Of a stretch of DNA of 64,000 bases, positions 27,086 through 64,000 are shown piece by piece. The notes beneath the pieces were generated by a model that saw only the letters and a list, made by a program, of their open reading frames with translations, was not told the DNA's origin and searched no databases. Both the position numbers and the translations under genes were made by a program. The stretch comes from Rhodotorula mucilaginosa (lineage: Eukaryota > Basidiomycota > Microbotryomycetes > Sporidiobolales > Sporidiobolaceae): the NCBI GenBank assembly GCA_034406715.1, contig CP137866.1:124001-188000 (forward strand), read 5' to 3'. Each line of letters begins with the position of its first letter. Position 1 is the first letter of the stretch.

Positions 27086-27168
27086 TGCGTTCGCCGGGAA
27101 TCGAACCCGGGGCTAGGCAACTCAGCAGAAGCTGGCAATGCCCAATTTTGCCACTAAACCACAAACGC
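27086..27168 (-). tRNA. tRNA-Gly (anticodon GCC) with a 12-nt intron
   Basis: On the minus strand the gene runs from GCGTTTG (27168) to CGAACGC plus discriminator A (27086); the acceptor stem pairs with one G-U. The D-arm region is GGTTTAGTGGCAAAAT. The anticodon stem is GGGCA/TGCCT around loop TTGCCA, and the T arm is CCGGG-TTCGATT-CCCGG. The anticodon GCC is at 27134-27136. Twelve extra bases (27121-27132) sit after position 37, the canonical place for a tRNA intron removed by the tRNA splicing endonuclease. Confidence 0.9.
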
Positions 27169-59197: not shown

Positions 59198-59609
59198 CTA
59201 CTGACCGAGGAGGTCCTTTGCCTCGTTGACTTTCGAGGCGATGTACGGGCTGCCACCTCGGTCGGGGTGGTTAGCGAGCATGATCCTCCTATGCGCATCC
59301 TTGAGTTTGGTCAAAGTCATGTGCGACTCTGGCACGCCGAGGATCTGGGCGGCCTCGTTCCTGTCCATCTTGGCGTTGAACCCGCCCTTTGCCCAATCGG
59401 ATTTGGCGCCCGTCGGGTCCTGGCCTGCGATGGCGGCGAGGAAGGGGTTCAAGCGTGCGCCGTTGCGGGCTGCGGCGCGGAGCGAGTAGCGGAGTCCGAG
59501 GGTGGTGGCGGCGACGGCCCCGGTGGCGGCGAGCAGAGAGGCCACTGCGGGGCGGGGCGAGAGGTGTGAGTTCGTGGTCGGGTGAATCTAATGCACGCTC
59601 TGACTCACT
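59198..59609 (-). CDS. PAM18: Mitochondrial import motor J-protein Pam18/Tim14
   Basis: Coding exons 59609 (a single base, A) and 59544-59198, about 115 residues. The start codon is split: A at the end of the upstream exon joins TG after the intron 59545-59608 (GTGAGT...CCCCGCAG). No other ATG lies upstream in that exon. The protein begins MASLLAATGAVAATTLGLRY with one membrane helix. It continues with NPFLAAIAGQDP and the J-domain KMDRNEAAQILGVPESHMT, RRIMLANHPDRGGSPYIASK (HPD motif) and VNEAKDLLGQ. Pam18 stimulates mtHsp70 at the TIM23 channel in the inner membrane. It is divergent from the MIM1 gene. Confidence 0.93.
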
Positions 59610-59766
59610 GTGACTGTGTGTGTGTGCGTGCGAGTGCGTGTATGCGGAGCGAGAGAGCGGCGAGAGAGAAAACTCGGAAGATTTTGCTCCGACGCCCAGT
59701 CCACACTCGACTCGCCCGTCTATTGCCTAGTTGGTGTACTCTGTGGCACGTATTAAGGTGACAGAG
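59610..59766. promoter_or_regulatory. Short bidirectional promoter, PAM18 / MIM1
   Basis: Only 157 bp separate the PAM18 and MIM1 start codons, so both 5' UTRs and promoters must lie here. It includes a GT-repeat at about 59615-59640 that would be transcribed in the PAM18 leader. Confidence 0.55.
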
Positions 59767-62700
59767 ATGGAGTCTGCTCCTCCGCTGCCGTCGCCCTCGG
59801 CGTTCCCAGCCCTGCCCCTCCACCCACACCCGCACTCGCCGCCATCCCTTCCGAGCAACAGCGACCACGCAGACACGCAAGAGCAGTCGACCCCCGCACC
59901 CGCACCCGCGACCGCGACCACGCTCTCGTACGCGCGCGCATCCAAGTCCAACCTGCCGCCGACCACCGCCCCCGAGGGCATCTCGCTCCCTCCGCAGCCG
60001 CACAAGCACACCGCCAACGAGCGCCCGCAGCGGGTCAGGCCAGAAGGCTACGCGTCAGAGAAACCCAAAGGTCCCGTCAAACCCTCCTCGTCCAACCACC
60101 CGAGGAACAAGAACAACCACCCGCGCAGGCAGAGCAACTCGGCTCCTCCACCTCCCACCACCACCACCGCCACGACGACGGCAAAGCGGCCACGCACCGT
60201 ACCCGGAATGCCCGCCTCGATGCTCCCCGCCCCCGTCGCCAACAAAAAGGCAAAGCACAAGTCGCAGCCACCACCCACAAACGGTGATGACCCCACAGCG
60301 GCAACCATGATCCCCGCCGTCGGCAAGAAGCGCAGGCAGACTCTCCGCAAGACGTTGCCGCCGACCGCGTCCAAACTGTCGGCCCTCGCCGCCTCGTTCG
60401 ACTTTGTCCCGCGCGCCGGCGCACCGTCCCTCCCCGCTCCTCCGATCCTCGCACCCTCTACGACAAAGTGCGTATCTCAAGCTTGTCTCGATGTCAAAAG
60501 TTCCTTGACCATGTGGATATTGATGGGCGACGATGAGAACAGATCGGCGCAGCAGCAGCAGCACGATGACGACACGGCGTCGGCCCCTCGTTCATCTTCC
60601 TCGAACGGCACCCTCGTCGCGGACGACGACAACGGTGACCGCCAACAGCAACAACACGTCGACGCCAAAGTCGACGACAAAGACGAGAAGGAGGATGGTA
60701 ACGTCGACCGATCGGCCGAGGAGGCAGAGATTCCCGCGGCCCAGAACGGCAAGCACGACAAGGACAACGACAACGACAACGCCGCCGCCATGATCCGCGA
60801 GACGGTCGCCTCTGCCGGCGCTCAGGGTGACGAATTCCGCTCCGAGTCCCTGACGACCGCCGATGCCCGAGGAGGCGCCATCGAAGCCCTCGACGGGACC
60901 GAACCGGGTTTGCAATCCGCTTCGGCCAAGAAACCCGTCTCGGCGGGATCGGCACCCGAACCAGAGCGGCAGCCGACGAAGGAGGAGGAAGCTCGTGATG
61001 CGGCGGTCAAGGAGGAATTGATTGCTGCGGTGGAGGAGGAAGGGTCGGTCAAGAAGAAGAAGGAACAGCAGCGATCGCTCGCCGGATTCTTGGACGAGGC
61101 GTTTGTCGCGGCTACCGATGGCGGATTCGCCCCGCTCGACTTGCCGGTCACCTCCACCGATTCCGTCTCCCAAGAGGAGAAGGGAGACGCGATGGTGTCG
61201 TCGGCACAGCAGGAGGAGGTCAAGGTGACGACGATTCCGGGCGCGGTGGACGCGAGTCCCGTCGCCGACTTGTCGTGGAGGGAGAAGAAAGGGTGGTGGT
61301 CACCGAAGACTTCGGATCAATTTGACGACTCTACTGCCGCTCGATCGGCTTCGACTACTCCGCCTCCGCCTCCGAACCCGAGCGCAGCCGGTCCCGCAGC
61401 TGTCGAACCTGCCCAGTCGCAAGGGATCAGCAAGGACGAGATCTTGCTCCGCTTCCCGCCTTGGAGACCCACCACCAACGGCGACGACAACGGGGAGAAG
61501 AAGGGCGATCAGACGCCGGTGAAGGAGACGGTCAAGCCGGACGAGGTCAAGCCGTTGGCAGACTTTTTGCCGTCGGCGTTTGTCGCCGCTCAGCCTCCTC
61601 CTTCTTCTGCCGAGTCCGCGGCCTCTACGACCTCGGAAGAGGAGGAGGAGCAGAAGACCGCGACGTCAAAGGAAGAAGAAGAAGAAGCGGCAGGAGGAGA
61701 AGGGGAGAAGAAGTCTCAGCAACAGCAGCAGCAGTCTGGGTCTGCGTTGTCGTCCTTCCTGTCCAACTCCTTCTCAGCGACGGGACCGCCCACTCCGCTC
61801 GAAGCTCCGGTCACCATCACGGTCGGCGAGGATGAGGACGAGGAGGAGGTTCCGCTCAATGCTGAAGCGATCGTTGCCGAACCGCCGTTGAGTGACATCC
61901 TTGATGTGGACGCGATCGGAGAGGACGGGAAAGTCGTTGTCGATCAGCCGAAGGAGGAGAAGGAGCAGGCGGAGAAGAAGAAGGACAAGGAGAAGAAGCA
62001 CGGATGGTGGTCACCGGATTACGTCTCGCCTGAACAGTCCACCACCACCTCGAGCGATGCTCACCAGACCGGTACCGGTCTCGTCGACGACAAGCTCGTA
62101 CAAGAGACGGTCGGAACCGCCGGCGCTCAGGGGGACGAATTCCGTGCCGAGTCGTACTCGAATGCGGACAGGGCTGGAGTCGCGCAGCTCGAACCGGCAT
62201 CAGCGAGTGCGCAATCGGTCCCCGCCTCCTCCTCGTCGTCGCCGTCGTCGTCGAAGCTGGAACAGCCGAAGGAGGAGCAAGAAAATGGCACGGCGGCGAA
62301 GGAGTCGGTCGTCGAGCAGGCCGAGCCTGAACGCTCCAGGACGCCGATCGGACAGTTCCTCGGCCAGGCGTTCTCGGCCCGCTCCCCGTCCGAGTCGGTA
62401 CAGGAGCAGCAGAACGACAACAAGATCGGAACCACCAGTGGTGAGAAGGACCAAACCTCGCCCACCTCAACCGAGGCGTCTGGTTCTTCTTCCGCCACCT
62501 CGACTCCTCGCGCTTCCGCCGTGTCCGAGATGGCGCCGACTGCTTCTTCTTCTTCTTCCTCTCAAGCGCCGCCGCGTCGCCGTCGCTCCTCCTCCTCTTC
62601 TTCTTCTTCTCCCTCGCCTCCTCCTTCCCCACGCCGAACGTCCTCGCATGGACAGGACAACGACGACGACGACGACCAATCATCGCACCCCCACAAAGCG

Positions 62701-63188
62701 GCCGACGAGGCACCCTCGCTCACGCTCGCGATCGCGAGCGCGTGGCACACCGCTCCGTGGTCGAGGAAACTCTGGGCGGTGCTCGCCAGCGTGGCGATCA
62801 ACGTGGGCTTGCCGTTCATCAACGGAGTCATGCTCGGTGCGTTGCGTTCCCCGATTCCTCATCAGACATTTTCTTTCCTCTGTCCCCAGAGTCCCGAAAG
62901 CTGACGCAACGTGCATGCATTCGTTACTTTTTATCCTGACGATCGCCATCCACCCATGCAGGCTTTGGCGAACTCTTTGCCCGCAACGTCCTCGGCGTCC
63001 GGCTCGGCTGGCCGCTCGCCTCTTCCGCGTCGCAAGGTTCGCAACAGCGTGCCAACACTGGTTCGGTCGGCCTCCGCGCAGCCGGCGCTGGCGGCAACCC
63101 CAACATCGGTCGCGAAGTGCCCGGACACGCTGGCGCCAAGACGGCGACGGAAGCTGTCGTCGAAGGCGCTCGCGAGCTTGCCGAATAA
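59767..63188 (+). CDS. MIM1: Mim1/TOM13 outer-membrane insertase subunit with very long N-terminal extension
   Basis: Three exons: 59767-60467, 60543-62836, 62962-63188; about 1073 residues. The C-terminal part reads VAINVGLPFINGVMLG joined across the last intron to GFGELFARNVLGVRLGWPL, the signature of Mim1/TOM13. Mim1 inserts alpha-helical proteins into the mitochondrial outer membrane; yeast Mim1 has only 113 residues. The first 990 residues are low-complexity, Ser/Pro/Glu/Lys-rich, with repeated short motifs. A phenylalanine motif occurs four times: SLAGFLDEAFVAA, PLADFLPSAFVAA, ALSSFLSNSFSAT, PIGQFLGQAFSAR. There are two copies each of KKxGWWSP-type and AGAQGDEFRxES-type motifs. The 60468-60542 segment is treated as an intron. 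Confidence 0.85.
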
Positions 63189-63454: not shown

Positions 63455-64000
63455 CTACCAGTCATCGTCTTCAGTCTGTTGTTGTTTTCGACCGGCACGC
63501 TTCGCCAGGGCTGCGGCGAGCATGTCCGCAGACGGCTTGACCAAGCCGCCCATACCTGGTGCAGGCGGCGCCGGGGGTGGAGGTGCACCACCGGCAGAGC
63601 CGTTCGCCGCGGGTCGGGGCGGCGCGGGAGGCGGAGGCGGCGGCGGGGGAGGGGCAGCCGCACCGCCTCGGAAAGGCGGCGCGGGCGGCGGCGGAGGAGG
63701 AGCAGGTGCGGCGCCGCGAAGAGGAGGCGCAGGGGGCGGAGGAGGGGGAGCAGGCGCGGCGCTACGAAGATGCGGCGCTGGCGGTACCGGCGGTGGGCGC
63801 GCCGCGTTCGAGACGGGCGGCGCGCGAGACGCCGCAGGCGGAACGAGAGGGGCATGGTGCATCGTTCCGGGCTTGTGCGGCACAGGCGGTTTTGGCTTTG
63901 GCGCGAGCGGGGGTTTGCCGCCTCCCAGTGCGGAGGAGGGCCGGGAGGATGCCGGCGAGCCGCCGTTCGACGAGACCGGAGTCGACGAGCCATTCTCCTC
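63455..64000 (-). CDS. C-terminal tail of a class I myosin (partial, right edge; tentative)
   Basis: The frame enters from the right edge and ends at 63455. About 180 residues are visible: a Ser/Gly stretch, KPPLAPKPKPPVPHKP, many polyproline repeats of the type APAPPPPPPAPP, then SADMLAAALAKRAGRKQQQ and the terminal acidic EDDDW. Polyproline followed directly by a short amphipathic segment and an acidic DDW end is the layout of fungal type I myosin tails, which bind profilin/verprolin partners and activate Arp2/3 at endocytic patches. A WASP protein would also end DDW but should show a WH2 motif, which is absent here. The motor and SH3 domains would lie outside the window. Confidence 0.62.
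   Translation of the reverse strand, partial: EENGSSTPVSSNGGSPASSRPSSALGGGKPPLAPKPKPPVPHKPGTMHHAPLVPPAASRAPPVSNAARPPPVPPAPHLRSAAPAPPPPPPAPPLRGAAPAPPPPPPAPPFRGGAAAPPPPPPPPPAPPRPAANGSAGGAPPPPAPPAPGMGGLVKPSADMLAAALAKRAGRKQQQTEDDDW

Follow-up and report, generated by a model that had tools for sequence, protein, structure and literature searches.

A giant Mim1 of red yeasts with a predicted disordered, motif-bearing arm and a candidate PAM2 variant

The gene and its relatives

The stretch of DNA analysed here (the window) comprises 64,000 nucleotides of Rhodotorula mucilaginosa (assembly GCA_034406715.1, contig CP137866.1, positions 124,001 to 188,000), and all positions are given within it. At 59767-63188, on the + strand, it holds a gene for a giant form of Mim1, a protein of the mitochondrial outer membrane. 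Its three exons join in frame to 1073 amino acids and a stop, as an earlier reading made without database searches (the sequence-only reading) had proposed. That reading had also assigned the C-terminal domain to Mim1/TOM13, which held: the Pfam profile TOM13 (PF08219) matched residues 975-1015 with 48.1 bits against a cut-off of 25 (E 1.2e-12). The observation of a giant Mim1 is confirmed. The gene is made up as follows.

59767..60467, +: exon 1 (residues 1-233 and two bases of codon 234), bearing the FPAL, SYA and PAM2-like blocks; from the gene model and conserved blocks
60468..60542, +: intron 1, 75 nt, GT..AG; from the gene model
60543..62836, +: exon 2, with the bulk of the disordered arm and the beginning of TOM13; from the gene model and open frame
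62837..62961, +: intron 2, within TOM13 (GVMLG / FGELFAR); from the gene model, NCBI proteins such as P0005 matching the spliced form
62962..63188, +: exon 3, the remainder of TOM13 and the C-terminal tail; from the gene model
62764..63011, +: TOM13/Mim1 domain, split by intron 2, with the hydrophobic segment containing GVMLG (GxxxG); from Pfam and hydropathy

A six-frame, exon-by-exon search of the genome (20.35 Mb, 19 contigs) found this gene as its sole TOM13 match. The top eight 19-residue hydropathy windows all begin at residues 976-983; the best, 980-998 (VLASVAINVGLPFINGVML), is followed by a G that completes GVMLG, so that the GxxxG motif of Mim1/TOM13 is present. No solved structure of Mim1 was found in the PDB, where the four matches at E<=1 were all designed proteins aligned to the C-terminal tail.

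A single open frame of 1057 codons (59731-62904) holds the arm together with the first part of TOM13. Intron 1 has no in-frame stop and could therefore be retained, giving a product of 1098 amino acids. It is kept in P0001 and P0002, very close relatives predicted without splicing, which end within the unspliced intron 2; NCBI proteins such as P0005 continue through TOM13, while the NCBI entry P0028 does not. P0003 and P0004 start just ahead of the exon 2 sequence and hence lack exon 1, a start that fits a broken frame in intron 1 there, with contig ends as an alternative cause.

With residues 320-1073 as query we found 39 long relatives (636-1382 amino acids, some incomplete), named as Rhodotorula, Rhodosporidiobolus, Sporobolomyces, Phenoliferia and Meredithblackwellia (the last two of Kriegeriales) and Cystobasidium minutum (Cystobasidiomycetes). 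Rhodosporidiobolus and Sporobolomyces are placed in Sporidiobolales. Since the long relatives are spread across several genera, the giant Mim1 is not an oddity of one species. The TOM13 region as query matched 696 short proteins, 120 of which were examined; those named among the matches listed belong to rusts, Malassezia and mushrooms and came from Melampsora (156-157 amino acids), Puccinia triticina (195), Malassezia (197), Pterulicium (127) and Russula (112). The window protein, at 1073 residues, thus departs from the usual small size of Mim1 (112-197 in these named examples). A 362-residue query, covering lengths of about 199-633, gave 16 proteins (15 of them new), including Pisolithus at 241-302 as well as P0160, which has 563 residues, and P0162. 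The long and short searches scored only the 7971 and 7991 candidates, respectively, that had the most shared words. The short form thus occurs widely, and the giant form seems to be a feature of the lineage of Microbotryomycetes plus Cystobasidium; Mim1 outside that lineage can have an arm as well, of one to some hundred residues.

Two side observations concern these database entries. P0013, P0016, P0028 and the Malassezia protein P0124 are Mim1 under proteophosphoglycan names such as ppg4, apparently a misannotation that has spread. P0174 (Verticillium albo-atrum, 565 amino acids) has PF02096 and TOM13 in one predicted protein, either a true fusion or joined neighbouring genes.

The arm and its repeated motifs

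Disorder of the N-terminal part, claimed by the sequence-only reading, was seen in a model of an orthologue rather than of the window protein itself: AlphaFold2 run on P0005 of R. pacifica (27 sequences) gave a mean predicted local distance difference test score (pLDDT) of 43.4, with values <50 for 826 of 1024 residues. The model has short helices at residues 310-322 (directly ahead of AGAQ copy 1, at 323), 445-458 (with GWW copy 1 at the end), 627-639 (the LDVD block), 714-723 (directly ahead of AGAQ copy 2, at 724), 801-809 (FL copy 4), 909-961 (the membrane domain) and 1011-1023 (the tail). It shows no helix at FL copies 1-3, GWW copy 2 or the PAM2-like block. The repeated motifs and the other blocks of the arm lie at the following positions.

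59794..59814, +: PSAFPAL block, residues 10-16; from alignment, its conservation being reached by 7/954 shifts
60814..60849, +: AGAQGDEFRSES, AGAQ copy 1; from alignment and conservation test
61078..61104, +: FL motif 1, LAGFLDEAF; from motif search and conservation test
61285..61305, +: GWW motif 1, KKGWWSP, where a short helix predicted for the R. pacifica orthologue ends; from alignment, conservation test and model
61555..61581, +: FL motif 2, LADFLPSAF; from motif search and conservation test
61747..61773, +: FL motif 3, LSSFLSNSF; from motif search and conservation test
61843..61911, +: block EEVPLNAEAIVAEPPLSDILDVD, recognisable in Kriegeriales relatives; from alignment
61996..62016, +: GWW motif 2, KHGWWSP; from alignment and conservation test
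62119..62154, +: AGAQGDEFRAES, AGAQ copy 2; from alignment and conservation test
62347..62373, +: FL motif 4, IGQFLGQAF; from motif search, conservation test and model

Four FLxxAF-like copies had been noted, and FLxx[AS]F was located at residues 416, 575, 639 and 839; the two copies of AGAQGDEFRxES were found at 325 and 760. The two copies of KKxGWWSP stood in part, the second (KKHGWWSP) fitting the pattern and the first reading EKKGWWSP; KxGWWSP, at residues 482 and 719, fits both. When residues 234-955 were shuffled 20,000 times with their composition kept, the observed count was reached in 0/20,000 shuffles for each of the four motif patterns tested; for FL, the 4 copies seen compare with shuffle means of 0.0002 for the longer and 0.0017 for the shorter pattern.

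Conservation was assessed with the 23 of the 39 relatives that were aligned with the window protein, by circular shifts along residues 1-955 (n=954), the FL, GWW and AGAQ motifs being those defined earlier from the window alone. Identity to the window protein amounted to 0.64 for FL, 0.62 for GWW and 0.59 for AGAQ, against an arm mean of 0.28, and these values were reached by 0, 20 and 28 of the 954 shifts, respectively. The PAM2-like block and the PSAFPAL block, both picked after viewing the alignment, each scored 0.79 (2/954 and 7/954 shifts).

Among all 39 long relatives, a regular expression found three or more FL motifs in 35, two GWW motifs in 33 (QWW being accepted as well) and at least one AGAQ motif in 33; P0004 and P0035 had a single GWW copy. 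The motifs are therefore conserved in related basidiomycetes, as the sequence-only reading had supposed, and their absence from close relatives, which would have spoken against it, was looked for among the aligned and regular-expression-searched long relatives and was not found. P0036-P0039 had no GWW and no AGAQ by regular expression, with one FL copy in P0036 and none in P0037-P0039, so that the arm looks older than its repeats. The FL, GWW and AGAQ motifs look like marks of Sporidiobolales, while the PAM2-like block and the block around LDVD extend to Kriegeriales. Searches for pieces of the arm elsewhere in the genome gave weak matches only, the best having E 0.08 (exon 1, with internal stops) and 0.35 (arm). 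We also observed that the short or mid-length Mim1 proteins P0050, P0083, P0099 and P0164 have SSFPS[LM] stretches resembling the PSAFPAL block of the giant form; judging from the sequences, this may be an older element.

The PAM2-like block, its counterparts in the genome and the neighbouring genes

As judged from the alignments, the most conserved element of the arm is a block in exon 1 that the sequence-only reading had overlooked.

60376..60411, +: PAM2-like motif LSALAASFDFVP, residues 204-215; from alignment, invariance, Pfam on peptides and patterns

LSALAASFDFVP has the form L-S-x-x-A-x-x-F-x-F-x-P, in which L, S, A, F, F and P are invariant in 27/27 aligned relatives (27 of the 39, the window protein not being part of this alignment). 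In P0005 numbering, the invariant columns outside TOM13 are P209, S212, L214, S215, A218, F221, F223 and P225, and beyond these only A495, P624, A627, E628, L640 and P871; the block is thus the densest run of invariant columns outside TOM13. The F-x-F-x-P form is present in 36/39 long relatives and the canonical PAM2 form in P0038, while the two without either, P0003 and P0004, both begin after exon 1. A canonical F-x-P also occurs in P0039 (LSPLAPSFEP, adjoining LSALAPSFSFHP) and in P0162 (LSALAPSFTP). No PAM2-type pattern was found among the 120 short Mim1 listed, some of which are fragments.

PAM2 is a motif that binds MLLE, a domain of poly(A)-binding protein (Pab1), and its likeness in exon 1 points to this protein and to mRNA. 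The PAM2 consensus is given in a passage of PMC9249222 as xxLNxxAxEFxP, with Phe as the chief determinant; Kd values of 0.2-40 uM are cited there for MLLE/PAM2 pairs. The window motif has L, A and F in register with it and P two residues later; read from its second F, it ends in F-V-P-R. The L, A, F and P of the consensus are invariant in the 27/27 full-length relatives, though with F-x-F-x-P spacing. From 40 occurrences we obtained 27 distinct motif peptides, among which invariance is by construction, since they were picked by pattern. Pfam PAM2 (PF07145) matched 9/27 of them at E<=1 and no other family appeared, while 0/27 shuffled peptides matched any Pfam family at that level. Pieces of the Cystobasidium protein scored 27.3 bits and, for a 41-amino-acid piece with two stretches, 29.3 bits (cut-off 20); the S. 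koalae peptide scored 15.6 bits (E 0.013). Shuffles of residues 1-233 produced the strict pattern in 3/200,000 cases and the relaxed one in 573/200,000, and in the 66,550 residues of window open frames of at least 100 codons the strict pattern occurs once, at the Mim1 gene. The patterns were shaped after sight of the window motif; the less forced evidence is the invariance in 27/27 relatives and the occurrence in ataxin-2.

Further evidence came from the candidate partner of the motif and from counterparts of known Pab1 ligands in the same genome. The sole MLLE match (98.6 bits) lies in a frame that is Pab1-like by eye and contains KLTGMLIE. LsmAD was found in a single protein, the ataxin-2 homologue (contig C4:126500-134500), which carries the stretch KLSATSAAFVFKPNP / LSATSAAFVFKP / KKLSATSAAFVFKPNPAAASFTPG with the same F-x-F-x-P spacing as the Mim1 arm; the strict pattern arose in 3/20,000 shuffles of that frame. 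As ataxin-2 PAM2 can comprise two overlapping units (stated for plants in a passage of PMC4105795), the KKLSATSAAFVFKPNPAAASFTPG stretch may be such a pair, in the F-x-F-x-P form. Some 2 kb upstream of the Pan3 kinase match lies an open frame, presumably encoding the N-terminal part of Pan3, that contains AAEFVPG, AAEFVPR and LSEGAPVFTP. Over the whole genome, Pfam PAM2 gave two matches, which at 17.6 and 16.2 bits stay below its cut-off and lie in open frames other than this one, and none at the Mim1 gene. The first, LSVSAPSFVP at contig C7:468185-468223, is a PAM2-like stretch in a frame that we take to be Emg1-like.

Several results weigh against an identification as a Pab1-binding PAM2. 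Neither the whole window protein nor its motif peptide gave a Pfam PAM2 match, nor did the whole P0036, P0037, P0039 and P0162; of eight peptides of relatives scanned singly, six had no match, including the canonical-looking ones of P0162 and P0039, and the whole Cystobasidium protein reached 18.1 bits, below the cut-off. The F-x-F-x-P spacing deviates from the consensus, and according to a passage of PMC9249222 the PAM2L motifs of Ustilago maydis, which differ in their F-x-x-P spacing and acidic residues, do not bind Pab1. P0160 (563 amino acids) has a long arm without a PAM2-type pattern. The ataxin-2 stretch was at first picked up with a loose pattern, one that arises in 1305/20,000 shuffles of its frame. 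Taking both sides together, we see in these comparisons moderate evidence that LSALAASFDFVP is a PAM2 variant. We also considered an Atg8-binding LC3-interacting region (LIR) at F-x-F-V. A LIR has L, I or V three residues after its first aromatic residue; V stands there in the window, but A, T, M, R or H in relatives, and 3/27 peptides lack the second F, and this candidate was rejected.

Upstream of the giant Mim1 gene and head to head with it, at 59205-59587 (- strand), lies an exon of a Tim14/Pam18-like J protein (PDB 2guz_A, E 3.5e-21). The two frames are about 180 bp apart, so that a promoter region may be common to these two genes of mitochondrial import; a start of transcription upstream of exon 1 would likewise agree with this spacing. 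Downstream, at 63455-64000 (- strand), lies a neighbouring proline-rich frame ending in ...EDDDW, which calls to mind a WASP/Las17 tail. The sole Rfam match at gathering score in the window is a tRNA gene at 27086-27168 (- strand).

Possible roles of the arm

Building on the domain, the gene layout, the conservation, the orthologue's predicted disorder and the resemblance to PAM2, we infer a topology, a binding of Pab1 and a tethering of mRNA. The gene would encode the cell's Mim1, an outer-membrane insertase subunit, fused to a disordered arm of about 950 residues. Passages of PMC6010339 place the N-terminus of yeast Mim1 in the cytosol and its C-terminus in the intermembrane space, and one of PMC13254594 agrees for the N-terminus. 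By inheritance the single TOM13 segment would anchor the giant protein with its N-terminus and arm in the cytosol and, by analogy, the exon 3 tail in the intermembrane space. The arm would act as a multivalent docking platform, the MLLE domain of Pab1 being the most likely ligand of its N-terminal PAM2-like motif; this contact would hold polyadenylated messenger ribonucleoproteins (mRNPs) at the insertase and favour local synthesis and insertion of outer-membrane proteins, while the FL, GWW and AGAQ motifs would bind further partners. This reading of the protein as a MIM subunit with a docking arm that tethers mRNPs has in our view an even chance of being right. A bolder version, a red-yeast insertase with a built-in mRNA tether, in which a lineage-specific PAM2 variant is shared with ataxin-2, outer-membrane proteins are made at the MIM complex and the other motifs add receptors or organelle contacts, is put forward only tentatively. 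The proposal of the sequence-only reading that conserved motifs in a disordered cytosolic arm are docking sites is retained in part: conserved repeats and disorder fit a docking platform, but nothing in our results links FL, GWW or AGAQ to import receptors, chaperones or other organelles.

The FL motifs might instead make the arm a docking site for import receptors or chaperones (Tom70, Tom20, Hsp70/Hsp40), with the PAM2-like block having another partner and precursors being passed along the arm to the insertase. Tom20 ligands follow the pattern phi-x-x-phi-phi, which the FL cores (L-x-x-F-L) formally fit, and FL is the most repeated and best conserved of the three motifs first noted. Binding of yeast Mim1 to the cytosolic domain of Tom70 in vitro is described in a passage of PMC6010339. 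Such docking nevertheless seems rather unlikely to us, as no profile match identified a partner and the FL motifs, with one copy in P0036 and none in P0037-P0039, look more recent than the arm. A plain spacer or brush, its length being what matters and its motifs serving turnover or phosphorylation only, would account for the low-complexity linkers and for the poor conservation of much of the arm (identity to the window averaging 0.28); distinct motifs with strong conservation would not be expected of a mere spacer, and we think this reading quite improbable.

It is also improbable that the gene makes two products, a long protein with a separate role and a short working Mim1 that begins at an internal start or in an alternative first exon. 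Elsewhere a short Mim1 is common, and a Met lies at most 120 residues before TOM13 in 12 of 37 sequences, at 60-61 in the window and its two nearest relatives. These 37 are the sequences, out of 40 with the window included, that had a parsed domain start (P0017, P0018 and P0033 were left out); their last Met lies 60 to 685 residues upstream, 60 being the value of the window and 685 that of the fragment P0004. This Met is at no shared place, its distance from the domain amounting to 560 residues in Meredithblackwellia, 439 residues in R. sphaerocarpa and 372 residues in R. pacifica. Conservation of a Met close before TOM13 was thus not seen, which bears indirectly on the transcript start around 62700 considered in the sequence-only reading and makes a conserved short AUG isoform unlikely, one in a single species being still conceivable from the sequences; moreover, the genome has no second TOM13 match. 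Finally, the gene model rests on the sequence alone, and some Mim1 entries are named proteophosphoglycan ppg4, as might be expected had the prediction joined two neighbouring genes. We rejected such a fusion, an artefact that is now hardly credible, because the arm and the beginning of TOM13 are read in one open frame of 1057 codons and relatives from Sporidiobolales, Kriegeriales and Cystobasidium show the join as well.

The proposed docking arm can be compared with known systems. Mim1 of Saccharomyces cerevisiae, which belongs with its partner Mim2 to the MIM complex, shares with the window protein the TOM13 domain and the hydrophobic GxxxG segment, and the window species has a single genome match to this domain. 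The yeast protein comprises residues 1-113 (PMC13254594, in a passage on this protein), unlike the window protein with its motif-bearing, predicted disordered arm of about 950 residues before the membrane segment. Upa1 and Upa2, endosomal mRNA adaptors of U. maydis, are membrane-associated and carry PAM2 motifs for Pab1, which invites comparison with the giant Mim1 arm; they are endosomal whereas giant Mim1 is mitochondrial, the GWW likeness to Upa2 is of three letters only, and we know of no TOM13 in either. Ataxin-2 and Pan3, Pab1 partners with PAM2, are soluble cytosolic proteins, and the ataxin-2 homologue of this genome shares the F-x-F-x-P spacing (LSATSAAFVFKP) with giant Mim1. AKAP1-LARP4 is a metazoan outer-membrane mRNA tether, and to our knowledge neither it nor SYNJ2BP-SYNJ2 is an insertase subunit. 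SYNJ2BP-SYNJ2, also metazoan, anchors mRNPs at the mitochondrial surface according to a passage of PMC12852828. Unlike these tethers, giant Mim1 would unite anchor and insertase in one chain. In the open-licence papers searched, none had both Mim1 and PAM2 as whole words, and a search with red-yeast names plus Mim1/TOM13 gave neither term among the matches listed; the conserved giant Mim1 seems to be undescribed there.

Some red yeasts are in industrial use. Mim1 has been known as a very small protein of fungi that has little mass in the cytosol, and the conserved giant form means that the insertase is able to bring along a recruitment platform of its own. Should the PAM2-like motif bind Pab1, there would be a direct physical link between mRNAs and the outer-membrane insertase, and local or co-translational insertion into the outer membrane would become testable with one peptide and one mutant. 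Even without Pab1 binding, the arm provides defined motifs with which partners of the MIM complex can be sought.

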